From Gammaproteobacteria bacterium (lineage in GTDB: Bacteria; Pseudomonadota; Gammaproteobacteria; Thiohalomonadales; Thiohalomonadaceae), in NCBI GenBank assembly GCA_026196275.1, contig JAPHTQ010000003.1, positions 1 to 42,795 of the forward strand: a stretch of DNA of 42,795 nucleotides, read 5' to 3'. A model generated the notes under the pieces. The model was not told the origin of the DNA. It worked only from the letters and a program-made list of their open reading frames with translations, and ran no database searches. Positions 8,604 to 26,339 of this stretch are shown here, one piece after another (position 1 is the stretch's first letter; each line of letters opens with the position of its first letter). The translations under genes were made by a program, and so were the position numbers.

Positions 8604-9527
8604 ATGTCCCAAAGCGAGCCGCCCACTCCTGCCCGCTTCCTGACGCCTCGTTACTGGCCGACCTGGGCGGGACTCGGCCTGTTGCGCCTGAGCGTGCTGT
8701 TACCCTTCCCCGTCATGCTCTGGTCAGGTCGGCAACTCGGCAAACTGCTCTACATCCTGATTGGCAGCCGCCGCCACGTGGCACTGACCAATCTGCGCCT
8801 CTGCTTCCCTGACCTGTCGCAAAAAGAGCGGCAGAAACTGGCGCGTGAGAGCTTTATCTCTGCGGCTATCTCCCTGTTCGAGGGAGTATTGAGCTGGTGG
8901 GGCCGTGACTCACGGCTGAAAAAGCTATACCGCATCGAGGGACTGGAGCACCTGGAGTCTGCTCGCCGGGCCGGCAACGGGGTCATCCTGCTGGGCGGGC
9001 ATTACACCACCCTGGAGATCAGCGGCCGCTTTCTCGCCTACCACGTTGAGGGACTGCAGCCGATCTACAAACCGGCAAAGAATCCACTTTTCGAATTGGT
9101 CATGGCCAACGCGCGCAAACGCCTGTTCGATGACCTCGTACCAAGCCGTGACATGCGTCGTATCGTGCGTAACCTGAAACGGAACAAGGTCATCTGGTAC
9201 GCCCCGGACCAGGATTTTGGCCGCAAACAGTCCGTCTTCGCCCCCTTTTTTGGCGTCCCTACCGCCACATTGACCACCACCGCCCGCCTCGCCCGCCTCT
9301 CCGGCGCCCCGGTGGTTCCCTACTACTCTGAGCGTCTGCCGGGAAAAGAGGGATACCGGGTCAAACTGCTTCCGGCGCTGGAAGGTTTCCCCTGCGGCGA
9401 TGACCTCGTCGATGCCACCCGCACCAATCAGGTGCTTGAGAGACAGGTTGAACGAATGCCGGAGCAATACCTGTGGCTGCACAAGCGCTTCAAGACCCGA
9501 CCGAAAGGGGAGAAAGGTGTCTACTGA
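8604..9527 (+). CDS. lpxL: Kdo2-lipid IV(A) lauroyl/acyl transferase, LpxL/HtrB family
   Basis: Adds a secondary acyl chain to Kdo2-lipid IVA at the inner membrane, late in lipid A synthesis. The product has 307 residues. A hydrophobic N-terminal helix (about 25-50) precedes the acyltransferase core, whose H-x4-E motif is GGHYTTLE. YKPAKNPLFE, APDQDFG and a C-terminal QYLWLHKRFKTRP are family signatures. It overlaps waaA by 11 bases, coupling late acylation with Kdo transfer. It could be LpxP- or LpxM-like in acyl choice; sequence alone does not decide, but LpxL is the best fit. Confidence 0.88.
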   Translation: MSQSEPPTPARFLTPRYWPTWAGLGLLRLSVLLPFPVMLWSGRQLGKLLYILIGSRRHVALTNLRLCFPDLSQKERQKLARESFISAAISLFEGVLSWWGRDSRLKKLYRIEGLEHLESARRAGNGVILLGGHYTTLEISGRFLAYHVEGLQPIYKPAKNPLFELVMANARKRLFDDLVPSRDMRRIVRNLKRNKVIWYAPDQDFGRKQSVFAPFFGVPTATLTTTARLARLSGAPVVPYYSERLPGKEGYRVKLLPALEGFPCGDDLVDATRTNQVLERQVERMPEQYLWLHKRFKTRPKGEKGVY

Positions 9528-10767
9528 ACGCTCGCCACATGATCTGTGGCGCTATAACTGGCTGCTGCGGCTGCTGGCACTCCCCATCACACTCTACACC
9601 CTGTGGCAGGCACTGAAGGAGCGCGAACCGGGCTACCTGTGGCAGCGCCTCGGTATCTACCGCAAACCGGCACGCCGGCGTGTCGTGTGGCTGCACGCCG
9701 CATCGGTAGGCGAAGTCAACGCGGTACTACCCCTCATCAAGCAACTGCAACAGCATCAACCCGAACAGCCTTTACTGTTAACCACGGCGACTCCCAGCGG
9801 TGCCCGCGCCGCCCGCGCCAAGCTCCCCCCCGGCGTCGAACACGCTTACTTTCCCATCGATTGGCGACGCAGCGTTCGCGGGTTTCTGGCCGCCTATCGT
9901 CCACGCTGCGCCCTGATCATGGAGACCGAGCTGTGGCCAAACCTCTATTGTGAATGCCCACAGCGGGAGATCCCCCTGCTGCTGATCAACGGTCGACTCT
10001 CGGCCCGTACCTCAAGGGTCAGGCCCTGGCTTCGTCGCCTCTACAGCCTCTGCTTGCAGCAGGTCACCGCGGTGTTGGCCCGCTCCGAGCAGGATCGCGC
10101 CAGCTTCATCACCCTCGGTGCTCCGCGGGAGCGTTGCGAGGTGATCGGCAATATCAAGTTCTCTTCCGCACCGCGCACCGAGCGGGTCACCCCCACCGAG
10201 TTGGGCCGCCCCTATGTGCTGGCCGCCTCCACCCGCAGCGGAGAAGAGGCACTGGTCATGGAGGCCTGGCACCAGGCCAAAGCCGACGGCCACCTGTTGG
10301 TGATCGCACCGCGCCACCCGCAGCGGCGCGAGCAGATCCTGGCAACGCTCAAGGGCGAGGAGGTGGCGGTTCGCAGTCGGCAAGATGCGCTGAGTGCGAA
10401 GACCTCGGTCTACCTGGCCGACACCTTCGGTGAACTGCCGGGACTAATCGCCGGTGCCGAACTGGTCTTCATGGGCGGTTCACTGGTAGCCAAGGGCGGG
10501 CAGAATATCCTTGAGGCGGCAGCACTCGGACGGGCGCCGCTATTCGGTCCACACATGGAGAATTTTCGCACCGAGTCAGAGACCCTGCTCGACGGTGGCG
10601 GCGCCATTCAGGTGGAGGACAGTACCGAGTTGGCGAAGAAAATAGCTATGCTGCTGGCCGATGCCCCACTGCGCGAGCAGATGGGGGAGAGGGCCCGCCT
10701 CCTGGTCGACGAGCGCAGGGACATGGCCTCGCGCTATCGCGAGGCCATCAGTCGCTACTGCGAGTAG
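9517..10767 (+). CDS. waaA: 3-deoxy-D-manno-octulosonic acid (Kdo) transferase WaaA
   Basis: Transfers Kdo from CMP-Kdo to lipid IVA on the inner face of the inner membrane. The product has 416 residues (E. coli WaaA has 425). An N-terminal membrane-anchoring segment is followed by LHAASVGEVNAVLPLI, IMETELWPNLY, a second Rossmann domain, and the C-terminal donor motif GGSLVAKGGQNILEAAALG with GPHMENF. The more usual GGSLVPHGGHNPLEPA is altered at several positions, but the Glu is kept. The start is the GTG at 9517, inside the lpxL end, preceded by AGGGGAG; the longer open frame from 9400 merely reads through lpxL. Kdo kinase nearby suggests a mono- or phospho-Kdo core. Confidence 0.93.
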   Translation: MSTERSPHDLWRYNWLLRLLALPITLYTLWQALKEREPGYLWQRLGIYRKPARRRVVWLHAASVGEVNAVLPLIKQLQQHQPEQPLLLTTATPSGARAARAKLPPGVEHAYFPIDWRRSVRGFLAAYRPRCALIMETELWPNLYCECPQREIPLLLINGRLSARTSRVRPWLRRLYSLCLQQVTAVLARSEQDRASFITLGAPRERCEVIGNIKFSSAPRTERVTPTELGRPYVLAASTRSGEEALVMEAWHQAKADGHLLVIAPRHPQRREQILATLKGEEVAVRSRQDALSAKTSVYLADTFGELPGLIAGAELVFMGGSLVAKGGQNILEAAALGRAPLFGPHMENFRTESETLLDGGGAIQVEDSTELAKKIAMLLADAPLREQMGERARLLVDERRDMASRYREAISRYCE

Positions 10768-10987
10768 CGCTCCCGGCGAGGAGTTGCCGGCGATTTACCA
10801 GCCCCACCATAAAGACAACCAGGGCAATGACGTACGTATTGACGAAAGGGTTCCTCGACCACAGCCCCTCACTGAACCCAACTGCAGTGGTCTCATCAAT
10901 CATTATGTCAATTCCATCTTGGCTGAGACTGAACGCTCTCCAAGCCCGCCTGAGGGCTCCTGCTTTGAAATCAGTCTGCCCCGCCAT
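10748..10987 (-). CDS. Possible small single-pass membrane protein
   Basis: An open frame of 79 codons whose ATG (10987) overlaps the last codons of kdkA and whose end overlaps the last codons of waaA. The translation has one clear hydrophobic helix, FVNTYVIALVVFMVGL, followed by NRR, the inside-positive pattern of a membrane anchor. It fills the whole gap between the convergent waaA and kdkA genes. No family was recognised, and AGG/AGA codons are present. It could be a real coupled small gene, a relic of a longer membrane protein, or chance. Confidence 0.3.
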   Translation of the reverse strand: MAGQTDFKAGALRRAWRAFSLSQDGIDIMIDETTAVGFSEGLWSRNPFVNTYVIALVVFMVGLVNRRQLLAGSATRSSD

Positions 10988-11687
10988 AGCCGCGTAACAG
11001 GGCCTTCCAATCCTCATCATCAAAGGCAAAGTGTCGTTGCTGGCGTCGGAACTTCTCCAGTGAGCGCTTGAGCCGCTCCATATTGGCCCGTTGCCAGCTC
11101 TCGGCGGGGTTGCGCAGTTCCCCCCGGTCGAAGTCGATCAGGGTGACCTTGCCGGCCTCATCAAGCAAGATATTGCGGGCATTAAGATCGGCATGGAACA
11201 CCCCCTCATCGTGGAAACGGCGCAGGCACCGCCCCAGGCTTGCAAGGAGGGTCGAGGGGAGACGTTTTTTACCCAGCCAATCGGCCAGCGGCTCACCCTC
11301 TACCACCTCGGTGACAACATCGCCACGATAACTCAAACTATCCCGGCAAATGCGTGCCGCCACCGGACGGGGCACCGGAAGTCCTCGCTGGTAAAGCGCC
11401 TTCAGCAACTGCCACTCCCGCCAGGGGCGACTGCGCTCAATACCCAGCCAGAGGTAGCGGTCACGGCAAAGTTTCGCCGGCACCCCGCCGCGGTGGTAGT
11501 GGCGTAGCGCCAACACCTTGTCGCCATGCTTAACGAACACCGTAGTGCCGCGCCCCGGCAGCTCACGCAGCAACCGATGCTGTGCTGACCAGTGCTCCGG
11601 ATCGAAAAAAGCATCATCCACTTGGCCGATGTAATCGGCATCATATAGGATGTGGCACTTGTCTTTAGTGATATGGATCGAATTCAT
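10971..11687 (-). CDS. kdkA: 3-deoxy-D-manno-octulosonic acid (Kdo) kinase KdkA
   Basis: Phosphorylates Kdo at O-4 in the inner core of LPS, as in Haemophilus and Vibrio, where a single Kdo carries phosphate. The product has 238 residues with a protein-kinase-like fold. It has FVKHGDKVLALRHYHRGG (nucleotide-binding lobe), RPWREWQLLKALYQRGLPVP, the catalytic loop FHADLNARNIL (Asp as base) and the metal-binding LIDFDRGEL. It is divergent from the GT9 gene, with only 3 bases between start codons, so its promoter must lie in the opposite gene. It is convergent with waaA, its functional partner. Confidence 0.9.
   Translation of the reverse strand: MNSIHITKDKCHILYDADYIGQVDDAFFDPEHWSAQHRLLRELPGRGTTVFVKHGDKVLALRHYHRGGVPAKLCRDRYLWLGIERSRPWREWQLLKALYQRGLPVPRPVAARICRDSLSYRGDVVTEVVEGEPLADWLGKKRLPSTLLASLGRCLRRFHDEGVFHADLNARNILLDEAGKVTLIDFDRGELRNPAESWQRANMERLKRSLEKFRRQQRHFAFDDEDWKALLRGYGGAD
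11622..11649 (+). promoter_or_regulatory. Candidate promoter for the GT9-uxs unit, within kdkA
   Basis: TTGGCC (11622-11627), 16 bases, TATAGG (11644-11649). The spacer region contains the palindrome GCCGAT-GTA-ATCGGC (11625-11639). Because there is no intergenic space, a promoter for the plus-strand genes must be inside kdkA. The match is weak and the palindrome may simply be coding. Confidence 0.25.
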
Positions 11688-11690
11688 ACC

Positions 11691-12770
11691 ATGGCTCTGC
11701 CGTTAACCTCGCCACCGAAAAACCTCTGTCTGCTGCGCCTGTCAGCCATTGGCGACATCAGCCATACCCTGCCGCTGCTACGAACGCTGCAGAAGGTCTG
11801 GCCGCAGACACGGATAACCTGGGTCATCGGGAAGACGGAACATGCGCTGATCAGCGATATTCCGGGGGTGGACTTTATCATCTTTGACAAGTCACGGCGA
11901 TGGCGGGCGTATGCCGATCTCAAACACGCCCTGGCAGGGCGCCGCTTCGATGTCCTGCTGCACATGCAGATGTCGCTGCGGGCCAGTATTGCCAGCCTGC
12001 TTATCAGGGCCGATATCCGACTCGGCTTTGATCGGACACGGGCCAGGGATCTGCAGTGGCTCTTTACCAACCACACTATCGCGGCCAGAAAAAAGCAACA
12101 TGTCCTTGAGAGCTTTTTCGGTTTTAGCGAAGCGCTTGGCATCACACAGCAGGTACTTCGCTGGGATATTCCCATCCCTGAGGCGGAGCGGCGCAAAGTG
12201 GAACAATTGCTGCCCGACACATCCTTTATCGTCATCAGCCCCTGTTCCAGCATGGCCTATCGCAACTGGACCAGCGCCGGCTATGCCGCGGTAGCTGAGC
12301 ATGCGATAAAAAAACATGGCCTGAAGGTGGTACTTTGCGGCGGACCGAGCCGCCTGGAGTGGCAGTATGGGGCCGAGATCCACGGTCGCCTCGACGTCAA
12401 CGGCTGCAGTCACGCCCTGATCAACCTCATCGGCAAAACCAACCTGAAGCAGCTACTCGCCGTCCTGGAAAGAGCCGAGACCATTATCAGCCCCGATGCC
12501 GGGCCAGCCCATCTCGGGACCGCCGTCGGCACACCGGTGATCGGCCTCTACGCCTGCACCAACCCTGACCGGGCACGCCCCTACCTAAGCGGCCACTACG
12601 TGGTCAACCGTTACCCCGAGGCGGTACAGGCAAAATATGGCAAACCGGTGGCGGAGCTGCCCTGGGGCACGCGGGTGCGTGACGAAGGGACTATGGAGCG
12701 GATTCTGCACGGGGATGTCACCGCCATGCTCGACAAGGTCATGCACGACCTTAAGGCCCAGGCCGAATGA
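11691..12770 (+). CDS. Glycosyltransferase family 9, LPS heptosyltransferase-like
   Basis: About 359 residues, with the two-domain GT-B layout of ADP-heptose:LPS heptosyltransferases. The N-terminal motif [20 protein letters not shown] is the classical GT9 start. The middle carries [19 protein letters not shown], and the donor site is [23 protein letters not shown]. It is probably heptosyltransferase I-like (WaaC role), since waaF (HepII) lies at 21.9-22.9 kb, but this is inference. The ATG at 11691 is chosen because conserved sequence begins soon after; GTG 11652 and ATG 11673 are in-frame alternatives, and none has a clear ribosome site. It overlaps uxs by 4 bases (ATGA). Confidence 0.82.
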
Positions 12771-13735
12771 GTCCGGTAGAGCACAGGCCACACTACCTGC
12801 CCAAGCGAATCCTGGTCACCGGCGGGGCCGGCTTCATCGGTTCGCATCTGTGCGAGCGCCTGGTTCGGGAGGGGCACGATGTGGTCTGCCTGGACAACTT
12901 TTTCACCGGCAGCAAACTCAACATCGAACACCTGCTCGACAGCTCCCACTTCGAACTCATCGACCACGACGTCACCGAACCGATCTCGCTGGAGGTGAAC
13001 GAGATCTACAACCTCGCCTCCCCCGCCTCGCCGATCCACTACCAACGCGACCCGGTGCGTACCACCCGCACCTGCGTGCAGGGGGCGATCAACATGCTGG
13101 ACCTGGCCCACGCCACCGGCGCCAAAATCCTCCAGGCCTCCACCAGCGAGGTCTATGGTGACCCGCAGGTACATCCACAGCCGGAGAGCTACTGGGGCCA
13201 CGCCAACCCCATCGGCGTGCGCTCCTGCTACGATGAGGGCAAGCGCTGTGCCGAAACTCTCTTCTTCGACTACCACCGCCAGTACGGCACCCGCATCAAG
13301 GTCGCCCGTATCTTCAACACCTACGGCCCGCGCATGCACCCTGACGACGGCAGGGTAGTCTCCAACTTCATCGTCCAGGCACTTACCAACCACCCCATCA
13401 CCCTCTACGGCGACGGCCAACAGATCCGCGCTTTTTGCTATGTCGACGACATGGTCGAGGGGCTGGTGCGGCTGATGCACGCCCCTGACGAGTTTACCGG
13501 ACCGGTTAACCTCGGCAACCCACAAGGGCTCTCCATACTGGAGTTGGCGGAGCGGGTGATCGCACTCACCGGTTCCGACTCCACCATCATCCGCCACCCA
13601 CTACCACAGGATGATCCGCAACAGCGCGAGCCGAACATCTCCCTCGCCAACACGGTGTTGCAGTGGCAGCCGAGTGTGGCACTGGAGATGGGGCTACAAC
13701 AGGCTGTCGACTATTTTCGCTCCAAGCTTTGCTGA
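12767..13735 (+). CDS. uxs: UDP-glucuronate decarboxylase (UDP-xylose synthase)
   Basis: Converts UDP-glucuronate to UDP-xylose with NAD+, supplying xylose for a surface glycan. The product has 322 residues of the extended SDR type. It has the NAD loop [39 protein letters not shown] and the catalytic Y-x3-K in [12 protein letters not shown], preceded by [10 protein letters not shown]. The C-terminal RVFN-type segment ([21 protein letters not shown]) and the Arg-rich [16 protein letters not shown] are characteristic of UXS rather than of dTDP-glucose dehydratase. It is translationally coupled to the GT9 gene. No UDP-glucose dehydrogenase is in the window. Confidence 0.9.
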
Positions 13736-13908
13736 ATCCAGAGAAGCGCAGCGCCCACCATGCCGAACCTGGACAGCAGCATTTTACAGCACCACAAATA
13801 CGGCCCCTGACGCATACAGCCACTTGCTGCAGACAGCATGCCCAAACCATCATTCGAAGCTTTCATGCTAGAATGACCGCACAGTAGTCGTAGACGAGAT
13901 ATTCAGCA

Positions 13909-14664
13909 ATGCGATATGCATTTATAACCTCTACAGGAAGAACGGGGACCGACTTTTTCACCTACCTCTTCTCTGAGGTGATCCCCAACAGCTGGAGTCA
14001 GCATGAGCCAAAGCCGGCATTCCGACGTCGAAGCTACGCGTACCTGTCTCGCCAACCGAGCTGGTATGACGAGTGGTACTTTCGAACCTCACGCCAATGG
14101 TTCAATCTGGGCAAGGACAAGGATTGGTACATCGAAACCAACTATCACCTGTTCGATGCCACCCCGCTGATACGCAAGGTTTTCCCCGATGCACTGATAG
14201 TGCATATCGTGCGCGACGGCCGTCAGGTCGTGCGCTCCTGGCTCAATCGCAACCGCTATATCACCAATGACCACATCACCGCTTTCCACCTCCCCGGCGA
14301 TCCCGCCCAGGTGGTGTGGAACGACTGGAACCCCGTACAAAAGCTGGCATGGTACTGGAAGACCGTCAACCAACAGGCCAAACGACTGAAACCCGACCTC
14401 TATCTCCATTTTGAGGATATTTTCAAGGCGGAAGAGAGCGCAGTCTTTCAAATCCTCGATGCCATGCCCGGCATCCAGTACGACAGGGATGCGGTCATTG
14501 CGGCACTCGGCCACCGCGTCAACTCATCGCGCCGCGACTTTTTTCCCCACTTTGAAGAGTGGCCGACTCTTTGGCAGCAACAGTTCTGGGAAATCGCCGG
14601 TGAGGAGATGGTGGCGCAGGGCTACATTGAGCAGATTCCGGGAAGCGAAGAGCGCAGCGCATGA
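13909..14664 (+). CDS. Sulfotransferase family protein 1
   Basis: About 251 residues. Sulfotransferases move sulfate from PAPS to a sugar, lipid or protein hydroxyl. The 5'-phosphosulfate loop is ITSTGRTGTDFFTYLF at the N-terminus, and the 3'-phosphate motif is VHIVRDGRQVVRSWLNR (about residues 97-113). The middle is rich in Trp and Tyr. No signal peptide is seen, so it is probably cytosolic and acts on a lipid-linked or core sugar before export. It follows uxs after a 173-base gap and overlaps the next sulfotransferase by 4 bases (ATGA). It is the first gene of an accessory island within the LPS locus. The acceptor is unknown. Confidence 0.82.
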   Translation: MRYAFITSTGRTGTDFFTYLFSEVIPNSWSQHEPKPAFRRRSYAYLSRQPSWYDEWYFRTSRQWFNLGKDKDWYIETNYHLFDATPLIRKVFPDALIVHIVRDGRQVVRSWLNRNRYITNDHITAFHLPGDPAQVVWNDWNPVQKLAWYWKTVNQQAKRLKPDLYLHFEDIFKAEESAVFQILDAMPGIQYDRDAVIAALGHRVNSSRRDFFPHFEEWPTLWQQQFWEIAGEEMVAQGYIEQIPGSEERSA

Positions 14665-15353
14665 TCGTATCTCATCGCCACAAATTCATCTTCATAAAAA
14701 CCCAAAAGACCGCCGGCACCAGCATAGAGATTGCTTTGTCAAAATTCTGTGGCCCGGACGATATCATCAGCCGTATATCCTCTGTCGATGAAAAATTCAG
14801 AAAGTCACTGGGCTACCCTGGTGCACAAAATTGCTACAAACCCTTGCAAGAGTACAACAAGTCGGACTGGTACCGACAACTCATCAAGCTGCGTCGTCCG
14901 AAGAAATTTTACAACCACATGCCAGCATCACTCATCCGCCAATATGTAGGTAATGAAGTTTGGAACAGCTATTACAAGTTCTGTTTTGAGAGGAATCCAT
15001 GGGATAAGGCGGTGTCGATCTATTACTGGCGCAACACATCTGAAGATCGAATTAGCTTCACTGACTATTTAGAGCAATGTGAAGATAACGGTAAGCGACT
15101 GAGCGAATACAGGCTCTATACCATTGATGACAAGCTGGCCGTCGATAAGGTCTACAAATTCGAAGAGATAGATTCAGCGATGAACGATATTACAGAGAGG
15201 CTGCAGCTACCTGAGATACCTCTACTGCCTAAGACCAAGACTGTCACCAACAAGAGCAGGACCCACTATAGTGAGCTCTATAATGAAACAGCCAAGGCAT
15301 ATATTCAGCGAGAGTTCTCGCGGGAAATCAACCTGTTAAATTACAAGTTTTGA
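14661..15353 (+). CDS. Sulfotransferase family 2 protein (carbohydrate sulfotransferase type)
   Basis: About 230 residues. The N-terminal HKFIFIKTQKTAGTSIEIAL is the PAPS-binding motif of the Sulfotransfer_2 family, which contains chondroitin 4-O and heparan 2-O sulfotransferases. YYKFCFERNPWDKAVSIYYWR supplies the 3'-phosphate Arg and Ser. The C-terminal half is Lys- and Asn-rich and AT-rich in its DNA compared with uxs upstream. It is coupled to sulfotransferase 1 by an ATGA overlap and convergent with sulfotransferase 3, only 10 bases away. The acceptor is unknown; a cell-surface sugar is the likely target given the neighbours. Confidence 0.85.
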   Translation: MIVSHRHKFIFIKTQKTAGTSIEIALSKFCGPDDIISRISSVDEKFRKSLGYPGAQNCYKPLQEYNKSDWYRQLIKLRRPKKFYNHMPASLIRQYVGNEVWNSYYKFCFERNPWDKAVSIYYWRNTSEDRISFTDYLEQCEDNGKRLSEYRLYTIDDKLAVDKVYKFEEIDSAMNDITERLQLPEIPLLPKTKTVTNKSRTHYSELYNETAKAYIQREFSREINLLNYKF

Positions 15354-15363
15354 TAATACTACC

Positions 15364-16173
15364 CTACTCCCAGTCAAAGCGTTCACCAAGATAATCGAAC
15401 AACTCTTCATTAAACGGTTGATATAGTTTGACCAGTTGTTCATGGGTCTGTGGATCCATCCCTTTACTATAATTCCCGGTATTGTATTTCTTTTTTACCG
15501 GCAGGCTGATCGACTCCACGCCAAGAAATTCGAAAATCCTTGAGAAGGTGGTTTCCGGAGACTGCCAGAACTGCTCACTCTCAAGGATTAGCATTTGTTC
15601 CCGTGAAAAGTAGTTGAGCCAACGTTTAATTTGCTGAACATACATCCCTCTCTCAGCATAACTGAAGTGACGAAATTTCTTCGCGATGAATGCCGGATCA
15701 TGCAGCAACCTCTCTTTCTCTTCTGCCACACGCAACTCTTCCTGTGCAAGTGCCTCCTCAAAACTGAGTGTTTCCCTACCCGCTCGCACCTGATGCTGAT
15801 AACTGGAATAAGCGCGATATACCGGATTGCGCAGTAGTACGATAAGTTTTGCTTCTGGCAACATTGCTGCAGCCCGCTCCGGCACACAGGGATGTAGCAG
15901 ATAGGAAGGCGACGCCTCGTAACATAGTGTATTTTCCTCAACCACAGGAAAATTTGAACGATACCACTTTTCACCTTTGTCATAATTACTATCAAAAAAA
16001 TGCAGCTCTTTTGTGGTAATGCTTGGCTGTAGTGCATGATGCATAGAAAGATATTTAAACAGTGATGTAGTACCTGCCTTCTGTGCGCCGATAATAATGA
16101 AATCTGGCAATGGCCGACGTTCGGCCGTCAGCAGGCGGTATTTGTGTCGCAATTTACTGATAATATTTTTCAT
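15364..16173 (-). CDS. Sulfotransferase domain protein 3 (heparan sulfotransferase-like)
   Basis: About 269 residues. The N-terminal PDFIIIGAQKAGTTSLFKYL is the 5'-phosphosulfate loop, and KELHFFD follows. KLIVLLRNPVYRAYSSYQHQ is the 3'-phosphate-binding motif, and YEASPSYLLHP sits between. The arrangement is that of the Sulfotransfer_1 group near heparan N- and 3-O-sulfotransferases. A short basic N-terminus (MKNIISKLRHKYRLLTAERR) precedes the domain, with no signal peptide. Its DNA is AT-rich. It is convergent with the plus-strand pair and downstream of the transposase relic. The substrate is not predictable. Confidence 0.88.
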   Translation of the reverse strand: MKNIISKLRHKYRLLTAERRPLPDFIIIGAQKAGTTSLFKYLSMHHALQPSITTKELHFFDSNYDKGEKWYRSNFPVVEENTLCYEASPSYLLHPCVPERAAAMLPEAKLIVLLRNPVYRAYSSYQHQVRAGRETLSFEEALAQEELRVAEEKERLLHDPAFIAKKFRHFSYAERGMYVQQIKRWLNYFSREQMLILESEQFWQSPETTFSRIFEFLGVESISLPVKKKYNTGNYSKGMDPQTHEQLVKLYQPFNEELFDYLGERFDWE

Positions 16174-16285
16174 TCTGTGTCTTTTTCCAAACCGGATAAT
16201 CCTCTATATTCCCTGGTATTAATTAAATACGTACTCACACTAGCGCCCGAAATAATTATCTAATAAATTCAGTTGGTTATCAGGA

Positions 16286-16462
16286 TTATCGTTTTTCATT
16301 TTCCGGTCGCATTGTAAACCTCCCACCGTATTTGTCCCGCCACTTGTAAAAGGTGGCGCTGCTCATGCCGTGCTCCCGAAATAGCTCTGGCACCGATACG
16401 CCGGACTCGGCTTGTTAAAGGATCCTCAGAATTTGGTTGTCGCTGTACTTGGACTTTTTCAT
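16286..16462 (-). pseudogene. IS3-family transposase OrfA relic with an internal stop
   Basis: From the ATG at 16462 the minus strand reads MKKSKYSDNQILRIL, a TAA stop (in place of the usual Lys codon), then QAESGVSVPELFREHGMSSA and TFYKWRDKYGG. This is the helix-turn-helix N-terminus of IS2/IS911-type OrfA. After GG the reading diverges (RFTMRPENEK) and stops at 16286, so the leucine-zipper part and all of OrfB are missing. No terminal repeats were found. It is a dead fragment in the 373-base gap between sulfotransferase 3 and the Stf0 gene, and it marks past insertion activity in the island. Confidence 0.85.
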
Positions 16463-16546
16463 GCAGAATCTCCTTCGTCTCAGTGTGCGAGAAAATTCTA
16501 CTTTTGAGCATCGCCATTTTTCGGGGGGATTACCATTCGCAAAGCC

Positions 16547-17329
16547 TTAACGCGAAAGAATTCGAGAAATGAAGCTCTTATTTTCCGTGGAAAACAGCGA
16601 TTTTCCATCATGCTGAGTAATAAAACGCCGACACCACTCTTCAGCCATTTCGCCCCCCTGCTTCTTGGTAACTGGAAGTTCAGGAACATCCACATTATCT
16701 AGCGCCACATTCATAAATTCCGCAATATCGCGTATAGCTCCACCAAAGTCTGCCAGCAGATTCTCGTATTCCACCTCCATGTAGCTACAGCCTTTTGCCT
16801 CAAGAGAATAACGCCAGGCAGCATTATCGAGCGAGATCTCTCTCAAACACTTATCTATATGTTCGAAGTCATAGCGTGGTTCACTTTTAGCGTCTCCTTG
16901 ACCATGTATCCATCGCCCGGTCTGTCTTGCTATGCTGAGTGACACAGCCTGTTTAACAAGTGATTTTCTTGTTAACAAGACATAATGTGCTTGAGGAAAC
17001 AAACTTATAACATTATTAAAAGTGCCAAACTTACGAATATGTGAATAGTGCAATTTAATCCCAAACACCCCATTTGGTGAAGTGCGCCGGTGTTGCAGCT
17101 CCCGTATAACCATCTCCAGAGAATCCAGTTCCAGGAGGCGTTTCCACTCCTTCAGATTTGCTGGATTTGCATACTCAAGCGGAAAACCAAATACACCGGT
17201 CCTGTAAAGAGCATGCCCCAGCATATGACTTCCGGATCGCGGAGTAGAGGCAACCACCAGAACCTTCTCTGGTTTATCTACTGGCGGGAAGTCATGCTCC
17301 TCGAAAAACTGTTCAGAATACAGGGCCAT
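16547..17329 (-). CDS. Stf0-type sulfotransferase
   Basis: About 260 residues. VLVVASTPRSGSHMLGHALY is the PAPS loop of the Stf0 family, named for mycobacterial trehalose 2-sulfotransferase. It is followed by TGVFGFPLEYANPANLKEW, matching the family pattern of TG-x-x-G-x-P-x-E-Y. The 3'-phosphate region is YVLLTRKSLVKQAVSLSIARQTGRW. Some Stf0 relatives sulfate rhizobial LPS or glycolipids. The start is placed at the ATG at 17329; the frame continues six codons to a TTG. The C-terminal end lies next to the transposase relic but appears complete. Its DNA is AT-rich, and it probably forms one transcript with the next three upstream genes. Confidence 0.86.
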   Translation of the reverse strand: MALYSEQFFEEHDFPPVDKPEKVLVVASTPRSGSHMLGHALYRTGVFGFPLEYANPANLKEWKRLLELDSLEMVIRELQHRRTSPNGVFGIKLHYSHIRKFGTFNNVISLFPQAHYVLLTRKSLVKQAVSLSIARQTGRWIHGQGDAKSEPRYDFEHIDKCLREISLDNAAWRYSLEAKGCSYMEVEYENLLADFGGAIRDIAEFMNVALDNVDVPELPVTKKQGGEMAEEWCRRFITQHDGKSLFSTENKSFISRILSR

Positions 17330-17379
17330 ATAATTTACCACCACCAATGAAGACGTGTTTGTGGATACAGGAACACAAA

Positions 17380-18174
17380 CTACATTTTAGGGCTAAAGGG
17401 AAACGCTTCAATCAACCCCGTAACATTGAATTTTGCCTGAGGGTGTTCTCGCTCCAGGAAAATTGAGTCTGCAGATAGCGGCTCTATTGCCTCACGACCT
17501 GTACCCTCAAAGTAATCATCAAACTTGAAGTTTTGCCCAAGTAATCTATCAGAAAACTTGATCCAGTCGGCAGCGACACCGTAGGCCTCAGCCAATATAA
17601 TGCCATGCAACGATGATGAGATTACACGTTCACAAGAGAGAATTTCACTAATGAACTCCTCTGCAGGAAGAGCCACTGATATAACTTTGACTGCAGGATC
17701 GGATATAACAACTTCCTCACGGTCCATGTAATGCGGGATAACACCAAGACGATGCTTTTTTTTCACAACCTTTGCAGCAAGAAATCTCGGCAACAATATT
17801 GCCGGGTCACCATATACTTCCGGGCAGTCGACCCCACGCTTTAACAGCAGCTCTCTGGTTCTAGGCCCTCTAACTGCAGTCACGTGCAAGCGACGCGTCT
17901 TTATTTTCGTATCCTCACTGATACAGCCGGTACCCCATATTATGTCGCCAGCCCGCGCATAATGCATTAACGACCCGACCGCCAGAAGCTTGGGGTGCTC
18001 ACGCTTTTTTGCAGAAACAACCTCTCGCTCCGACAGCGCTGAGACTAAAAAAGGAGAGATAGCATCACCAACATTAGGCTTACCTGACCACCAATACATT
18101 TTCACCCTGGTGTGACTCAGAGCATAAGCTGGATTTGGAGCAACGAAATAACTTCCAAGCTGCTTAAAATTCAT
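17380..18174 (-). CDS. Polysaccharide pyruvyl transferase family protein
   Basis: About 264 residues, related to ExoV/CsaB-type ketalases that add pyruvate from PEP to sugar hydroxyls. VKMYWWSGKPNVGDAISPFL at the N-terminus, AVRGPRTRELLLKRG, YGDPAILLPRF and the C-terminal RVISSSLHGIILAEAYGVAADW are the family hallmarks. It may put an acidic ketal on the same glycan that the neighbouring sulfotransferases modify. It lies between two sulfotransferase genes on the minus strand. Some members of this broad family have other transfer roles, so pyruvylation is likely but not certain. Confidence 0.85.
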   Translation of the reverse strand: MNFKQLGSYFVAPNPAYALSHTRVKMYWWSGKPNVGDAISPFLVSALSEREVVSAKKREHPKLLAVGSLMHYARAGDIIWGTGCISEDTKIKTRRLHVTAVRGPRTRELLLKRGVDCPEVYGDPAILLPRFLAAKVVKKKHRLGVIPHYMDREEVVISDPAVKVISVALPAEEFISEILSCERVISSSLHGIILAEAYGVAADWIKFSDRLLGQNFKFDDYFEGTGREAIEPLSADSIFLEREHPQAKFNVTGLIEAFPFSPKM

Positions 18175-18254
18175 ATAATACCCAAACGAACAGAATCATG
18201 TATCAAAGACGCAACACTTCACCCTAACGCCCGCCCAGACAGGTAAGAATACTG

Positions 18255-19115
18255 TTAGGGCTCTTTAAATTTCTCATAGCTAGGCCACAATCCCTGAATA
18301 AAATCACGACCAAATCGTTCTGCAACAAACTCGAATGTGGGGCGATAATAGTCAAACACCTCTCTCTTAACATCGTCATCAATCAGATTGTTGGTGCGTG
18401 AGACATTCACCTTTCTACCAAAGTCTGGTTCAACATAGTCTATGCTTAGAAAGTCAGTAATTCCTCTAATGCTTCCCGGATCAAACAAGCGTTCGTAAAA
18501 CTCATAGTGCACATCATGACTATCAAAAACAGTTTCAATATTACGTATCGTTTTCTCGTACTGTGTGCGGATTTTATATATCGGTGTCTTGTAATTCTCA
18601 ATCAGGTCTTCAACTTCATCATTTTCTGGCGTGTTGGCAGCATTTCTACGTGTCATCCTCATCGAGGATATACACCGCTCAACCGGATCTCGCATGATGA
18701 ATAAGACCTTGACAGCAAACCCCCTATCCTCCAACTCTTTTTTGATTTTCACCAAGGCTTCAACTGGAAGACCGGCATAAGAGGGGGTAATGTCACCAGT
18801 TAGAGATATTGATCCGGCACCGTCAACGAGTGATGAAAAGTAATTAAAATAACAACTTATGTCTCGATAAAAACACCTGTACTTAAAAACCTCCTTCATT
18901 TTACTGATTTTGAAGACTCTCCATCTTCTAAACAACCTGTAAAAATCGGTGTTCCTGGACTTAAGGTGTGCAAACTCGGGAAGATAGAGAGCATCAAAAA
19001 CGTGATACTCCTTCTTGAATCCCATATTGGCAGCATGATGCATATTCAGGTAACGGTAGAGCCATGTCGTTCCGCCTTTCTGACAGCCTACCCCCAGGAC
19101 AAATGTCTTATTCAT
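18255..19115 (-). CDS. Sulfotransferase domain protein 5
   Basis: About 286 residues. FVLGVGCQKGGTTWLYRYL is the PAPS loop and KEYHVFD follows, as in heparan-type sulfotransferases. VLFIMRDPVERCISSMRM is the 3'-phosphate motif; GDITPSYAGLP is the central segment. The start is the ATG at 19115, with AAGGG upstream at good spacing; an in-frame TTG two codons earlier is unlikely. A 60-base sample at 18301-18360 has 26 G or C, against 41 in a sample inside accC (40021-40080). This supports different compositional origin. It stands between the pyruvyl transferase and the GT2 gene. Confidence 0.87.
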   Translation of the reverse strand: MNKTFVLGVGCQKGGTTWLYRYLNMHHAANMGFKKEYHVFDALYLPEFAHLKSRNTDFYRLFRRWRVFKISKMKEVFKYRCFYRDISCYFNYFSSLVDGAGSISLTGDITPSYAGLPVEALVKIKKELEDRGFAVKVLFIMRDPVERCISSMRMTRRNAANTPENDEVEDLIENYKTPIYKIRTQYEKTIRNIETVFDSHDVHYEFYERLFDPGSIRGITDFLSIDYVEPDFGRKVNVSRTNNLIDDDVKREVFDYYRPTFEFVAERFGRDFIQGLWPSYEKFKEP

Positions 19116-19169
19116 CACCAACCCTTACAAAGAGAACAAGTTCTGTGTTATTCCTGTTTAACTGAAGCA

Positions 19170-20048
19170 TCACAAACCTTTCTCTTGCAATTCACCATAA
19201 GTCACAGACGTCACGTCATCATAATCATCAAAATCGTTGACAACGCCTTTTTCACACCAGAACTCACCTTTTCTCGCTGCGATTTTCCTGTTTTCAAAAT
19301 AATCTTTATTTACTCTCTCGCCGGGAGCACGGTGTGGCGGGTGATATTGATGCAACGAATACTCGGAATCAAAAACATTCTTCCCTTGTATTCCAGCTGC
19401 ATAAAGTCGCCATCCAAGATCGTCATCTTCATGCCCCCAACCTTGATATCCTTCATCGAAGCCGTTGACCACCTCTATATCTGACTTGTAGATGGCACAA
19501 ATCCCTGACCTCAATTTAGGCCCAATTGGCCTAAGGTGCAGCTTATGCAACCACTCATAGATTTTCTCTTTCCGATACTGTTTCTTGACTTCCATTATCT
19601 GCTCGTCGCGCACCAGTGACGAGAAGTCACCTGACCGTATCATTTCCCTTCTGATTCCTGCAGACTGTTTCTCATCCAAACGCAACAGATAGCCGACAAG
19701 AAATTTACCTTTGCGCATATTCTTGCATAGATATTCAAAATACCCCGGCGTGAAGACAACATCCTGATCGGCAAAAATTATGATACCGTCATCTGCGGCG
19801 CGCACCCCGTTATTCCTGGATCTCGCTGCACGAAAGCCATTATCAGCCTGACGCACGTGGGTAATTGGCACGGACAACTCCTTTGAGAATTCCTCAAGAA
19901 TCTCCGCCGGGTCCTGCTCTGATCCATCATCAGCAATAATTATTCTGTTTACCTTTTGTGTTTGAATTGAGACTGATAACAAAATATTTCTCAACATCTC
20001 AATTCGATTATACATAGTAATAACAAGGGTAATATTCGTATCCATCAT
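19170..20048 (-). CDS. Glycosyltransferase family 2 with a galactosyltransferase-like C-terminal motif
   Basis: About 292 residues. The N-terminus is a GT-A domain: ITLVITMYNRIEMLRNILLS, IIIADDGSEQDP and the DxD motif in IIFADQDVVFTPGYFEYL. The C-terminal NGFDEGYQGWGHEDDDLGWR matches the Glyco_transf_7C motif of beta-1,4-galactosyl and N-acetylgalactosaminyl transferases and of bacterial chondroitin-type synthases. It probably adds Gal or GalNAc to the outer core; the exact sugar is inferred. AAGGAAG precedes two tandem ATGs (20048 and 20045); spacing favours the second. Its AT-rich DNA groups it with the sulfotransferase island. Confidence 0.87.
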   Translation of the reverse strand: MMDTNITLVITMYNRIEMLRNILLSVSIQTQKVNRIIIADDGSEQDPAEILEEFSKELSVPITHVRQADNGFRAARSRNNGVRAADDGIIIFADQDVVFTPGYFEYLCKNMRKGKFLVGYLLRLDEKQSAGIRREMIRSGDFSSLVRDEQIMEVKKQYRKEKIYEWLHKLHLRPIGPKLRSGICAIYKSDIEVVNGFDEGYQGWGHEDDDLGWRLYAAGIQGKNVFDSEYSLHQYHPPHRAPGERVNKDYFENRKIAARKGEFWCEKGVVNDFDDYDDVTSVTYGELQEKGL

Positions 20049-20097: not shown

Positions 20098-21123
20098 TCA
20101 CCTGTAATACAAGTCGATTATTCTCTGAGTAATTTTTTCCGGAACGTAGTCAAAAGCATCAACCTTTGCCTGCTCACTCAACTCCTTTCGCAGCGCCTCA
20201 TCGCGATACAAACGTTCTATTGCCTGTTCGAGTGCCTGGCTCTCACAAACCGGGACCAGTAAACCATTCCGCCCTTGATGAATAAGGTCAGGAATACCAT
20301 CCACATTACTGGCGACGACAGGCAGTTTCGCACGCATCGCATCAAGCAGGATCGAACCCAACCCTTCCTGCAAGGATGGGAAGGCGAACAGGTCAAACAC
20401 CTCCAGATAATCACCAACGTTGTCGACGAAGCCCTCAAAGGTGATGTTATCCAGTCCCTGCGCAAGCTCGCGAAACCACGCCTCGTCCTTACCCCGGCCA
20501 AGGAAGATGAAGTGCATCTGCGGGTATTTTGTCGCCAGCTTACGCGCCGCCTCAATGAGGTATTGCTGCCCCTTGTGGTAGTTGACCAGGGCGCCGATAT
20601 GGCCGATGAGGAACTTGCCGGCAAAGCGCTCGCGTAGCGCGTCGACTGCGGCCGCATTGACCGGCAACTGGGCCGACATGGAAGGTATGATCTGCACATT
20701 CAGCTCAGGGTTGTGCTGCAGCATGCTAGCCTTGATCGCCTGTGACAAGGCGATTACCGCCGTGGCATTGCGATAGACAGCACGGGTCAGTGGGTTGTTG
20801 CCAGGCACTCGGGGTACCCGACGGGTGATAACGTAGGGAATACCAAGAAGGCGCCTCACCCAGTAGGTGTACTGGCTCGCCTTGGCCTCATGAGCGTGCA
20901 GCAGGTCACAGCCGCGCGCGGCCCCCACGCCGAGGATATAGGGTTTGCAAATGCGCCGTATCTTCAACCCCTTGACATCAGCTAGCCTGTCACCCAGGTC
21001 CGACTCTTTGCGCACCACGGCGATCTGCTCAAAGCCGCGTGCTGACAGCTCGCGGATCAGCAGCTCGGTCTGGCGCTCACCGCCGCGGAAACCGGCCGCG
21101 AGATTGACATGGCCGATAATCAT
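20098..21123 (-). CDS. Glycosyltransferase family 4
   Basis: About 341 residues with a GT-B fold. The N-terminal MIIGHVNLAAGFRGGERQTELL gives the acceptor-side glycine loop. HAHEAKASQYTYWVRRLLGIP follows, and the nucleotide-sugar site includes IGHIGALVNYHKGQQYLIEAA and FAFPSLQEGLGSILLDAMRA (the E-x7-E motif). The role is transfer of a hexose or similar sugar to LPS core. The DNA is again GC-rich like the LPS core genes. Its start overlaps the end of the WaaE-like gene by 4 bases, so it belongs to the hldE-waaF operon rather than to the island. Donor and acceptor are unknown. Confidence 0.88.
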   Translation of the reverse strand: MIIGHVNLAAGFRGGERQTELLIRELSARGFEQIAVVRKESDLGDRLADVKGLKIRRICKPYILGVGAARGCDLLHAHEAKASQYTYWVRRLLGIPYVITRRVPRVPGNNPLTRAVYRNATAVIALSQAIKASMLQHNPELNVQIIPSMSAQLPVNAAAVDALRERFAGKFLIGHIGALVNYHKGQQYLIEAARKLATKYPQMHFIFLGRGKDEAWFRELAQGLDNITFEGFVDNVGDYLEVFDLFAFPSLQEGLGSILLDAMRAKLPVVASNVDGIPDLIHQGRNGLLVPVCESQALEQAIERLYRDEALRKELSEQAKVDAFDYVPEKITQRIIDLYYR

Positions 21124-21884
21124 TTATCCCCGCGCGCCTTCTGCTCGATCATCTCCAGCAGCTTGAGGTATTTGAAGTAGGTACGGAACACCGTGGTTAA
21201 GGTAACAGTGAGACCGTCCAGTCCCTGAAAAATACCGCCCTTGATAAAGAACTTGCGCATGAATGCAACCAGCGCATGGATCACCGGCGCTAAGCGTCCG
21301 GGACGTTTACCCTTGTCGTACATCGCCCAGGCATCACGCGAGGAGAGCTCGTTGATACGACTGACCCAGTGACTGTAGTCATTATAGGTGGTATGGATCA
21401 GATGAGCCGGTAGCCGTTCGACCCGCTTAGCCTCAACATAGGCGTGCCCTTTCTTCGGTACGTAGCCGGCTCGCTCGCGGTGGTAGAGCCGGATGACGTA
21501 GTCGGGATAGAAACCGGCAGCCTTGATCCAGTGTTTGCCCACGTAATTCTTGCGCCGCAGGGCATAGGCATCAGCACGGCGATTATCGAGATCGAGCGAC
21601 TCGATAGCTGCCACCGCATCTTCATCCAGTCGCTCGTCGGCATCGATGCTAAGGATCCAGTCGTAACTCGCCTGTGGCACAGCGAAAGCCTTCTGCGGAC
21701 CGTCACCCAGATAGGTCTGGTGAAATACCCGGGCACCCGTCTCCTCAGCCAGACGTGCGGTCGCGTCGGTCGTCTTGCTGTCGACCACCACCAGCACCTC
21801 ATTGCAGACCCGCTGCGCCGAGACGATACAGTCGACAATATTCTTTTCCTCGTTGAGGGCGATGAGGGTAGCCGTTATTTTCAT
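21120..21884 (-). CDS. WaaE/KdtX-like glycosyltransferase family 2
   Basis: About 254 residues. ITATLIALNEEKNIVDCI at the N-terminus and LSIDADERLDEDAV (DxD) belong to the WaaE/KdtX group, which adds glucose beta-1,4 to heptose I in the LPS inner core of Klebsiella and Serratia. The C-terminal HWIKAAGFYPDYVIRLYHRE, YSHWVSRINELSSRDAW and KGGIFQGLDGLTVTLTTVF segments are also typical. It is tightly coupled: one-base overlap with waaF upstream and ATGA overlap with the GT4 downstream. The inner-core role is inferred from similarity and position. Confidence 0.85.
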   Translation of the reverse strand: MKITATLIALNEEKNIVDCIVSAQRVCNEVLVVVDSKTTDATARLAEETGARVFHQTYLGDGPQKAFAVPQASYDWILSIDADERLDEDAVAAIESLDLDNRRADAYALRRKNYVGKHWIKAAGFYPDYVIRLYHRERAGYVPKKGHAYVEAKRVERLPAHLIHTTYNDYSHWVSRINELSSRDAWAMYDKGKRPGRLAPVIHALVAFMRKFFIKGGIFQGLDGLTVTLTTVFRTYFKYLKLLEMIEQKARGDK

Positions 21885-22912
21885 TACTGATTGCTCTCAA
21901 GTCGCGGCATCAGCGCCGCATGAACCTGCTTGACAGTGATTCCAGTTAGACAGTCGGTATGACCAAGCGGACAGTGTCGCTCGAAGCAGGGACTACACTC
22001 CAGTCTGCGGTAGAGTACCTCGGCCTTGCCAGAAAGTGGCGGTGTGTAGTCGGGAGTGGAGGAGCCGTAGATCGCCACCAGCGGTCGTCCGGTGGCCGCA
22101 GCCACATGCATCAGCCCCGAATCGTTGCTCACCACCGCATCGCAGGCCGCGATGAGATCCACTGCCTCTACCAGCGTGGTTCGTCCGCAAAGATTATGCA
22201 CCTGCTCGCCACCGCCCTCGACAATCACCTCACCGGCAGCCCGATCCTTCTCCGAACCGAATATCCAGACCTGATGCCCCGCCTCAACCAGGCCACGCGC
22301 CAGTCCGGCATAGTAGTCAAGTGGCCAACATTTGGCAGGGCCATACTCGGCACCAGGCATCAAACCGATCACCTTGCTGCCGCGATCCAGTCCCAGCGCA
22401 TCGGATAAGCGCTGCTGATTAGCCTCATCCACTACCAATTTTGGCTGCGGAATCGGCGGCGGCAGTGGCGCATTGTCCGGCAGAGCCAATGCCACATAGC
22501 GTTGCACCGTCTGCCGTAGCACCGATTTGTCCAGCATGCGCATATCATTGAGCAGCCCGTAGCGCAACTCGCCGCGATAACCGGTACGAATTCGCGCAGC
22601 GGCGAAAAACGGAATCAACGCAGCCTTCAGTGAGCGCGGGATCACGATCGCCTGATCGTAACGATTCTGCCGCAGCTTGCGGCCCAGCCGCCAGCGTTTA
22701 GCCAGACCCGCCTCACCGTGCGCAATCGGCACCGTGATCGCCGCATGCACCTCGGGCATCCGTTCGAGCAGCGGCACCGACCATGCCGGTGCCAACACAT
22801 CGATCTGTGCAGCCGGCTCGCGCTGTTTTATCGTCATAAACAGGCTCTGCGCCATCACCATATCCCCCACCCAGGCGGGGCCGGCAATGAGATAACGCTT
22901 CGTCCCGTTCAC
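21884..22912 (-). CDS. waaF: ADP-heptose:LPS heptosyltransferase II WaaF
   Basis: Adds the second L-glycero-D-manno-heptose to the LPS inner core, using ADP-heptose made by HldE, encoded upstream. The product has 342 residues (E. coli WaaF has 348). YLIAGPAWVGDMVMAQSLF is the N-terminal GT9 motif. MPGAEYGPAKCWPLDYYA and the donor-site AVVSNDSGLMHVAAATGRPLVAIYGSSTPDYTPP are WaaF signatures. The C-terminal CSPCFERHCPLGHTDCL carries the Cys-rich pattern usual in WaaF. It follows the aldo/keto reductase by 3 bases in a closely packed minus-strand operon. Confidence 0.95.
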   Translation of the reverse strand: MNGTKRYLIAGPAWVGDMVMAQSLFMTIKQREPAAQIDVLAPAWSVPLLERMPEVHAAITVPIAHGEAGLAKRWRLGRKLRQNRYDQAIVIPRSLKAALIPFFAAARIRTGYRGELRYGLLNDMRMLDKSVLRQTVQRYVALALPDNAPLPPPIPQPKLVVDEANQQRLSDALGLDRGSKVIGLMPGAEYGPAKCWPLDYYAGLARGLVEAGHQVWIFGSEKDRAAGEVIVEGGGEQVHNLCGRTTLVEAVDLIAACDAVVSNDSGLMHVAAATGRPLVAIYGSSTPDYTPPLSGKAEVLYRRLECSPCFERHCPLGHTDCLTGITVKQVHAALMPRLESNQ

Positions 22913-23698: not shown

Positions 23699-24894
23699 CT
23701 TTGCTCCTCCTGCCAGGGCAGCGGGGCATAGCCCGGGTGCGGCCAGTGCGGAAGCTCACCTGCCGTCGTGGGCGGCACGCCACCCTGTTGGATCTTGTCG
23801 ATAACCACCGTGGCCAATCGCGGCGCGAGCGCCAGCTTGGTCGGCCAGGCGGTGATGATGCCGTCGGCCTCATCGGCAAAAACATTGTCCGGCCGGCTGC
23901 CGTCGCCCATCTTCGGTTCGGCCCGCTCAATGGGCAATGTGCCCCACTCGGCATCGCTCAGATCGAGCCAGGGAAAGAGAGCACCCAGCTCCTTTTTCGC
24001 CGCCGCGACCTGGGCCGTATGATCACGACCGACCCCCTCTTCGGCGATCTGGCCGCCGAGATACCAGACGGTACGGCCCTCGCTGTCGTAGTGGGTGGTA
24101 ATGGTAATGCGTGGATTGGCGCTGGGACCAAGGCAGTGGGCGTAGAGTTCGCCCGGCAGCGGATTGTCGCGGCTGCCGCGCAGCATCACCATCTGCAGCG
24201 GTCGCAGCTGCATCGTCGGTGTACGGCGACCGCACTTTTCCAGCAGGGCCGCATTGCCCTTGCCGGCGGCAAAGACCAGATGTTTTGCCTCGAGACAAAT
24301 ATCGCCTGCAGCGATCTGCCAACCGCGTTCGCTTCTGCTCAGCTGCATGGCATCCGGATTATTGAGTTTGATGAGCGCCTCACGCTGCGGTTCGGCCAGC
24401 GCCTGCACCAGTGAGGTGGTGTCAAGCACCGGCTCCTCCAGGCGATAGACCTGGCCGTGAAAGGCGGGATTGCGGAAGATCGCGGGCCGCTCGTCACCCT
24501 CCACCGTACGGGTTCGGCTGCGCATCAGCTTGCTGGCAAAAAAGCCGGCCATGCGCGAAGTAAGACTTTCGGTGGACCACATAAACTGGTTGGGCGAGAG
24601 CAGCTCAACCGCACTCAGATCCAGCTCCCCCTCGCCGGCGAGACAGGCACGCCAGATGGGGGGCATCTCTGCGATCGCCTCGGAGGAGCCGGTGAGCTTG
24701 CCGGTCAGCGCGTATTTGGTACCGCCATGGATGATGCCCTGGGCGTAGCGGGTCTGCCCGGCACCCAGCGTCTGCGACTCCAGCAGTACCGCACGGTAGC
24801 CTTCCTGACGCAATCGCGCCAGCAGCCACAACCCGGCGACACCGCCGCCGAAAATCGCGATATCGACCGGCGTAAGCTGAGCTTCGGTGGTCAT
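23689..24894 (-). CDS. FAD-dependent oxidoreductase, DAO superfamily
   Basis: About 401 residues. [19 protein letters not shown] is the FAD-binding Rossmann loop, followed by [22 protein letters not shown], similar to glycerol-3-phosphate dehydrogenases and L-2-hydroxyglutarate oxidases. The mid-region [13 protein letters not shown] and [17 protein letters not shown], and the C-terminal [14 protein letters not shown], close the fold. The substrate is unknown. Its ATG overlaps the hldE stop (ATGA) and its end overlaps the aldo/keto reductase start, so three products are probably made together. The reason for an oxidoreductase pair inside a heptose operon is unclear. Confidence 0.8.
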
Positions 24895-26339
24895 TCCCCG
24901 CCCGATTTCTTTTCCGAGGCGCGGATGGCACCGATGATGCCGGTGGTGGAGACGTTATCCACGTAACTCATCACCTCCACCCGGCCACCGGCCTCACGCA
25001 CACACTCGCCACCGGGGATCTTGTCCGGTTCGTTATCGCCGCCCTTAACCAGGATATCCGGCAAGACTCGGCAAATAAGACGAGTCGGAGTATCTTCGTC
25101 AAAACCCACCACCCAGTCGACACAGTCGAGAGCCGCCAGCACACGCATGCGCCTCTCCTGGGTGTTGACCGGGCGTTCCTCGCCCTTGAGGCGTTTTACC
25201 GAGGCATCGTCATTGACCGCAACGATGAGACGATCGCCCAGCCTGGCCGCTTCCTCCAGATAGGTCACATGACCGGCGTGCAGGATATCGAAACAGCCGT
25301 TGGTCATCACCACGGTTTCGCCGTGGGCCTTGGCCTCCTGCACCAGCGCCACCAGCTTGTCCTCATCCACCATCCCCTGCTCCATCTCATCCTGCTCGCG
25401 CATGGCACGGCGCAGTTCCGGGACACTGGCGGTGGCAGTCCCCAGCTTACCCACCACCACGCCGGCAGCGAGATTGGCCAGTACGGTGGACTCAACCAGC
25501 CCCTGGCCGGCGGCCAGTGCCGCAGCGAGTACCGAGACTACGGTATCACCGGCACCGGTGACATCGAAGACTTCGCGTGCCTTGGTGGGGATATGCAGTG
25601 GTTCGGCGTTCTCCTGCAGCAAGGTCATACCCTTTTCGCTGCGGGTGATAAGCAGCGCATCCAGCCGCAGCTGACGGCGCAGTTGCTCGCCCTTTACCAC
25701 CACCTCTTCGTCGTTGGCGCAGTGACCGACCACACCCTCGAACTCGCTCATGTTGGGGGTGATCAGGCTGGCCCCGGCATAGCAGGAGAAATCACTTCCC
25801 TTAGGGTCGACCACGACCGGTTTACCGGCGGTGCGGGCAATTGCAATCATCTCCCCGGCCTGGCGCAACGCACCCTTCTGGTAATCGGAGAGCACGACCA
25901 CATCACACTGCTCCAACTCGGCGCTAAAACGATCAAGCAGCCCACTGGCATCGTAGCCAGGGAAGCCGTCCTCGAAATCGAGGCGAATGAGCTGCTGGTG
26001 GCGACTCAGCACGCGCAGCTTGGTCACCGTGGGAAAGCCGGCCAAACGTTCGAAATGACAGGTCACCTCGTGGTTCTCGAGTGCACAGGCCAGCGCATCC
26101 GCCGCCTCGTCATCACCGGTCAAACCAACCACCGCCGCGCTAGCGCCCAACGCGGCGACATTGAGCGCCACGTTGCCGGCACCGCCGGCGCGCTCCTCGA
26201 CCTCGCCCACCCTGACCACAGGCACCGGGGCCTCCGGCGAGATACGCGAGGTATCACCGTGCCAGTAGCGGTCCAGCATCAGATCGCCGACAACCAGAAC
26301 ACGGGCAGCGCTAAAATCAGGTATCTGGATAATTTTCAT
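24891..26339 (-). CDS. hldE: Bifunctional heptose 7-phosphate kinase / heptose 1-phosphate adenylyltransferase HldE
   Basis: Makes ADP-heptose for the LPS inner core. The product has 482 residues (E. coli 477). Residues 1 to about 320 are a ribokinase-type kinase: [51 protein letters not shown] and the catalytic [20 protein letters not shown]. From about 345 there is a nucleotidyltransferase with [19 protein letters not shown] (HxGH) and [11 protein letters not shown] at the end. Both halves are fused and look intact. It heads the minus-strand operon hldE-oxidoreductase-reductase-waaF-waaE-GT4, starting after the terminator of the ilvE operon. AAGG precedes the ATG. Confidence 0.96.

Follow-up and report, generated by a model that had tools for sequence, protein, structure and literature searches.

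To our knowledge, sulfation of lipopolysaccharide (LPS) is known from few cases, mostly involving single enzymes. Five intact sulfotransferase (ST) genes and one polysaccharide pyruvyl transferase gene were identified from open reading frames and Pfam profiles at positions 13909-19121 of the window, which is the whole analysed stretch of 42,795 nucleotides (contig C54 of a 2.54 Mb assembly with 88 contigs and 99.2% completeness). With a probability of about 0.6, the STs and the pyruvyl transferase decorate the core of LPS or lipooligosaccharide with sulfates and pyruvate, by way of an acquired cassette.

Gene content and origin of the block

The block was surrounded by an LPS inner-core frame, tolC-lpxL-waaA-kdkA-GT9 on one side and waaF-hldE-ilvE-glnE on the other (Table 1), and the conserved order of waaA, kdkA, the heptosyltransferases and hldE at its flanks is that of an LPS core biosynthesis locus. 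On the plus strand, ST1 and ST2 overlapped by 4 bases and were co-directional with GT9 and uxs, meanwhile ST3, ST4, the pyruvyl transferase, ST5 and GT2a shared the minus strand with GT4, GT2b and waaF; ST2 and ST3 were convergent with a gap of 10 bases.

Table 1. Features of the ST block and its neighbours in the window
Feature	Positions	Strand	Evidence and remarks
lpxL-type lipid A acyltransferase, frame gene	8604..9527	+	PF03279; kept in relatives
waaA, Kdo transferase, frame gene	9400..10767	+	PF04413
kdkA, Kdo kinase, frame gene	10971..11687	-	NCBIfam PRK01723, 275 bits against cut-off 142
GT9, heptosyltransferase-type glycosyltransferase	11652..12770	+	top NCBIfam models are heptosyltransferases, all under their cut-offs
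uxs-like nucleotide-sugar epimerase/decarboxylase	12767..13735	+	family-level match only; 67-71% identity in core loci of relatives
ST1, Sulfotransfer_3	13909..14664	+	Pfam 38.8 bits; motifs RTGT, RDGRQVVRS
ST2, Sulfotransfer_2	14661..15353	+	Pfam 26.6 bits; homologues in other multi-ST core loci
ST3, Sulfotransfer_1, heparan 3-O-sulfotransferase-like	15364..16173	-	Pfam 70 bits; PDB relatives
IS3-type orfA transposase remnant	16300..16462	-	recognised from translation; in-frame stop
ST4, Stf0 family (PF09037)	16547..17347	-	Pfam 80 bits; PDB 1tex; first ATG at about 17329
Polysaccharide pyruvyl transferase	17380..18174	-	PF04230, 55 bits
ST5, Sulfotransfer_3/1	18255..19121	-	Pfam 40/36 bits; first ATG at 19115, in agreement with the original prediction
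GT2a, GT2-family glycosyltransferase	19170..20048	-	low GC; homologues in core slot of relatives
GT4-family glycosyltransferase	20098..21123	-	profile match
GT2b, GT2-family glycosyltransferase	21120..21884	-	profile match; comparison with relatives
waaF-type heptosyltransferase, frame gene	21884..22912	-	PF01075, 229 bits
hldE, frame gene	24891..26339	-	PF00294 and PF01467

The original prediction had named five STs from at least three families, each with visible 5' and 3' PAPS motifs, together with a pyruvyl transferase, between waaA/kdkA/GT9/uxs and the waaF side. All of this was borne out. In profile searches against sulfotransferase families each of the five exceeded at least one Pfam curated cut-off, with four Pfam families represented (Sulfotransfer_3, Sulfotransfer_2, Sulfotransfer_1 and Stf0), and inspection of all five found both the 5'-phosphosulfate loop and the 3'-phosphate-binding motif. 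The pyruvyl transferase was recovered by its Pfam profile and the flanking genes by Pfam and NCBIfam, with hldE and others beyond waaF. No membrane-anchor-like segment was present in any of the five STs (maximum 19-residue hydropathy 0.7-1.1).

Artefactual reading frames were rejected, since profiles, motifs and homologues argue otherwise. Gene duplication was also rejected as the source of the five STs: in pairwise comparison the sole significant match was between ST3 and ST5 across 37 residues, so the mutually almost unrelated proteins represent four Pfam families and not one duplicated gene. That 5.2 kb out of 2.5 Mb should hold five of the STs detected is no chance event. Two more ST domains were observed on other contigs (C56:13764-14426 and C84:11394-11999), where they end long open frames of 590-621 aa, possibly TPR fusions.

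ST3 could be aligned over residues 15-223 with human heparan sulfate 3-O-sulfotransferases of the PDB (1t8t and others; E 1.6e-28), and its catalytic domain carries the Glu/His/Asp site residues. In this alignment of about 200 residues KELHFFD was paired with AEPHFFD and the Glu-x-His-x-x-Asp pattern was retained, but the Lys of EKTPSYF is replaced by Ala in ST3 (EASPSYL), and a heparan-type polymer is not indicated. In ST2, the motif residues K16, G19, S21, R111 and S119 were invariant among 12 sequences. An alignment of ST2 against viral contigs gave 202 confirmed matches, 80 of which were retrieved, all distant (26-36% identity); a scan of viral contigs with ST1 gave no match. A single-sequence AlphaFold2 model of ST1 (pLDDT 46) was too poor for use.

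The genes from ST2 to GT2a had a GC content of 41-47%, whereas those on either side had 56-62%; GC3 was 0.42-0.56 in the block and about 0.7 in the flanks, and ST1 was intermediate with 55% GC. An IS3-like orfA remnant sits between ST3 and ST4. Because of the low gene GC relative to the flanks and the transposase remnant, the block looks acquired. A scan of genome contigs with ST3 found one relative (Candidatus Theseobacter exili, 41%) and no donor.

The core slot in relatives and in other families

Regions downstream of waaF were retrieved from 17 genomes, 12 of them in the same family. Relatives whose contigs span the locus largely shared the order thiC-pcm-tolC-hem-lpxL-waaA-kdkA-GT9-[variable]-GT4-GT2b-waaF-AKR-DAO. 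Upstream of thiC, a TPP riboswitch was observed in the window at 5390-5515 on the minus strand. In the genome with the most similar waaF (G005) the slot was filled by GT9, GT4 and GT2 glycosyltransferases, two FkbM methyltransferases, a UDP-glucose dehydrogenase and a PF00884 protein. The gene of the latter (L042:14310-16259) encodes a sulfatase/phosphoethanolamine transferase fold, and it is probably a core phosphoethanolamine transferase.

No ORF in the slots of relatives matched the five STs, and among the 25 most frequent families of 48 ORFs in the slots of other relatives, the level to which families were listed, no ST family appeared. The Sulfotransfer_3 matches of relatives were located outside the slot except in G001 of the same family, where one such gene lies between kdkA-GT9 and a GT2a homologue. 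In relatives the slot is filled by glycosyltransferases, FkbM methyltransferases and UDP-glucose dehydrogenase, so it is the species-variable region of the core locus, and STs are one type of its content. The block itself would then be a horizontally exchanged decoration cassette in this variable part of the LPS or lipooligosaccharide core locus. Elsewhere in the same family, a cluster on contig C14 of G010 (L065) comprised three STs in tandem and a further ST, together with a PF00953 glycosyltransferase and an APS kinase; it is likely a sulfated exopolysaccharide or O-antigen locus.

A search for similar clusters, which the original prediction had proposed for related genomes, revealed comparable multi-ST core loci in several gammaproteobacterial genomes. 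In three further families of the class, loci whose 3-5 STs represent two or three Pfam families adjoin waaA, kdkA, hldE or glnE, and at least two STs beside core genes were present in five families, the family of the window included. In G378, the order was glnE-ilvE-zf-CHCC-Sulfotransfer_1-ST2-GT4-ST2-GT4-Sulfotransfer_3-GT4-Sulfotransfer_2-hldE (five STs), with GT9-kdkA-waaA-lpxL-tolC-pcm further along the same contig, and in G283, which belongs to that genus too, the stretch between ilvE and hldE held four STs together with a protein of O-antigen-ligase type. In G108, waaA-GT9-kdkA was followed by Sulfotransfer_2, Sulfotransfer_3, Sulfotransfer_1 and ST2 within 8 kb, and a fifth ST (Sulfotransfer_3) lay 6 kb beyond these four. 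Five ST genes adjoined hldE in G140, one of which was recognised solely as an ST2 homologue; three followed waaA and hldE in G254; and G377 combined kdkA-waaA-lpxL-tolC-pcm with two genes of the Sulfotransfer_2 family, a protein of ligase type and a homologue of GT2a.

ST2 homologues (35-40% identity) were present in all six of these loci, meanwhile ST1, ST4 and ST5 had no close counterpart there. As judged by sequence similarity, the ST2 subfamily is the common element of the multi-ST core loci and the partner STs differ. Across the class, the number of genomes with an ST2 homologue was at least 22 out of 369, a lower bound given by a concatenated query (ST1, ST2, pyruvyl transferase and ST5) with at most two candidates scored per genome, which is uninformative on ST1. 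The six loci resemble the block in having 3-5 STs (two in G377) adjoining waaA, kdkA, hldE or glnE, but the remaining STs there come from different subfamilies, with GT4 genes interspersed. The multi-ST arrangement at core genes is thus recurrent and not unique to the window.

A proposed sulfated core and its sulfate donor

From the gene context and from what is generally known about LPS assembly, a most likely mode of action can be proposed for the block. The frame genes make Kdo-lipid A, KdkA phosphorylates Kdo, and heptose and further core sugars are added on the cytoplasmic side of the inner membrane. Provided that all five STs are active and that PAPS is supplied in this organism, these soluble enzymes would each move sulfate from PAPS onto sugars of the growing core in the cytosol, probably each at a position of its own. 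A pyruvate ketal would come from the pyruvyl transferase, and flipping and export of the molecule would follow. This would yield a strongly anionic core that bears several sulfates along with pyruvate and phosphate. Five different enzymes are not proof of five different sites.

There is good support for a link to the LPS core, both from synteny within the family and from the multi-ST loci that other families have at these frame genes. The original prediction had spoken of a sulfated outer core or O-chain; the core part gained from this synteny and these loci, but the O-chain part is unsupported in the core block, as neither Wzx, Wzy, ligase, ABC exporter nor initiating transferase was detected with Pfam and NCBIfam among the genes of the core block (8604-24894), which does not have the make-up of a sulfated capsule or O-antigen cluster. 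It is unlikely, though to be given some weight, that the STs act on another polymer (capsule, exopolysaccharide or O-antigen) with their position in the core locus being incidental. Clustered STs are known for sulfated capsules and O-antigens (PMC11641403, PMC11766843). Pyruvyl transferases are typical of polysaccharides, the PF00953-type cluster of G010 combines an APS kinase with at least four STs, and the O-antigen-ligase-type proteins in the core loci of G283 and G377 point to a polymer attached there. However, the block lacks an exporter, a polymerase, an initiating transferase and a ligase, and STs are repeatedly paired with core genes in separate families.

That some of the five target small molecules, lipids or proteins instead of LPS is rather improbable. 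ST4 belongs by its sequence to the Stf0 Pfam family, whose founding member sulfates the small molecule trehalose, and the loci that were examined held nothing closely homologous to ST1; but ST4 is not a trehalose 2-sulfotransferase equivalog, being far under the cut-off of that NCBIfam model (65.6 against 400 bits), and the neighbours of the STs are all glycan genes.

STs depend on PAPS, the product of ATP sulfurylase and APS kinase. ATP sulfurylase (Sat) was present in the genome and so was aprA, cut at the end of contig C74 (contigs C16, C74 and C61), meanwhile APS kinase, CysH and CysD were not found in the assembly, the sole APS kinase profile match being FtsY, which was rejected. With these three absent from the assembly there is no known PAPS source, which stands against a sulfated core. 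The organism would appear to oxidise sulfur and to lack assimilatory sulfate reduction, and sulfur oxidisers with Sat and AprA have APS at hand. APS kinase and Sulfotransfer_3 genes co-occurred among 56 genomes; among the 40 that were at least 95% complete, 20 of the 21 ST-positive genomes had APS kinase, the exception being the genome of the window (Fisher p = 1e-4, with relatedness uncorrected). An assembly gap is the likely cause of the missing gene and, for a single genome, the simplest explanation. No APS kinase was detected in 4 of 20 other genomes with relatives of block proteins, and these four include G378 and G283 (one genus, 99-100% complete; L108, L117 and L118), which carry 4-5 core-locus STs; genomes of the G108 and G140 types do have the enzyme. 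Since none was detected in a second genus either, a biological explanation is worth testing. There is a slim chance that in some gammaproteobacteria the LPS core is heavily sulfated from a donor independent of known APS kinase, through an unrecognised kinase acting on APS or a non-PAPS donor.

It is quite improbable that the acquired cassette is functionless here for want of PAPS: the foreign composition and the transposase remnant would fit a recent and idle block, as would the position of this genome as the sole ST-positive one without APS kinase among the 40 of at least 95% completeness, but all five reading frames and motifs are intact, cysC may simply be missing from 88 contigs with genes cut at their ends such as aprA, and decay would not predict the intact multi-ST loci kept by G378 and G283, in which APS kinase was not detected either.

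If these loci work in the proposed way, exchangeable ST sets build an LPS core that is poly-sulfated and pyruvylated in several lineages of gammaproteobacteria. This would offer a genetic handle on how these bacteria adjust their surface charge, the bridging by cations, phage reception and contact with hosts, and new carbohydrate STs could be drawn from such loci. For sulfate activation in these cells, the lack of a detected APS kinase provides a sharp and cheap test case.

Comparison with known sulfation systems

The original prediction knew of no such ST set. This claim is weakened, as sets of 3-5 STs at LPS-core genes recur; what stands is that no paper describing them was found. A full-text literature search gave no account of multiple STs in an LPS core locus, and as it left out most subscription journals this is weak evidence of novelty.

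Gene clusters for sulfated capsules have been described in Vibrio sp. KMM 8419 and Cobetia marina KMM 1449 (PMC11641403, PMC11766843). These marine gammaproteobacteria resemble the present case in having STs clustered with glycosyltransferases, and in Vibrio sp. KMM 8419 one ST lies among O-antigen genes. However, their clusters are of capsule or O-antigen type with PAPS-synthesis genes, whereas the block has no PAPS genes and an LPS core frame, and the three STs of Vibrio sp. KMM 8419 are spread across a large locus, unlike the compact block. The surface polysaccharide cluster SMb21237-SMb21249 of Sinorhizobium meliloti also has three STs in one polysaccharide cluster and is co-regulated with lpsS, but it is not a core locus and is activated jointly with the sulfate-activation genes nodP2Q2 (PMC5498481).

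Already known are thus sulfated capsules from multi-gene clusters with PAPS genes and LPS sulfation by a single enzyme (PMC11641403, PMC11766843, PMC5498481). The latter is LpsS of S. meliloti, an LPS sulfotransferase (Cronan and Keating 2004, cited in PMC5498481), which is like the present enzymes in modifying LPS; by its description in the citing paper it is a single enzyme, whereas the block combines five STs of four Pfam families with a pyruvyl transferase in a core locus.
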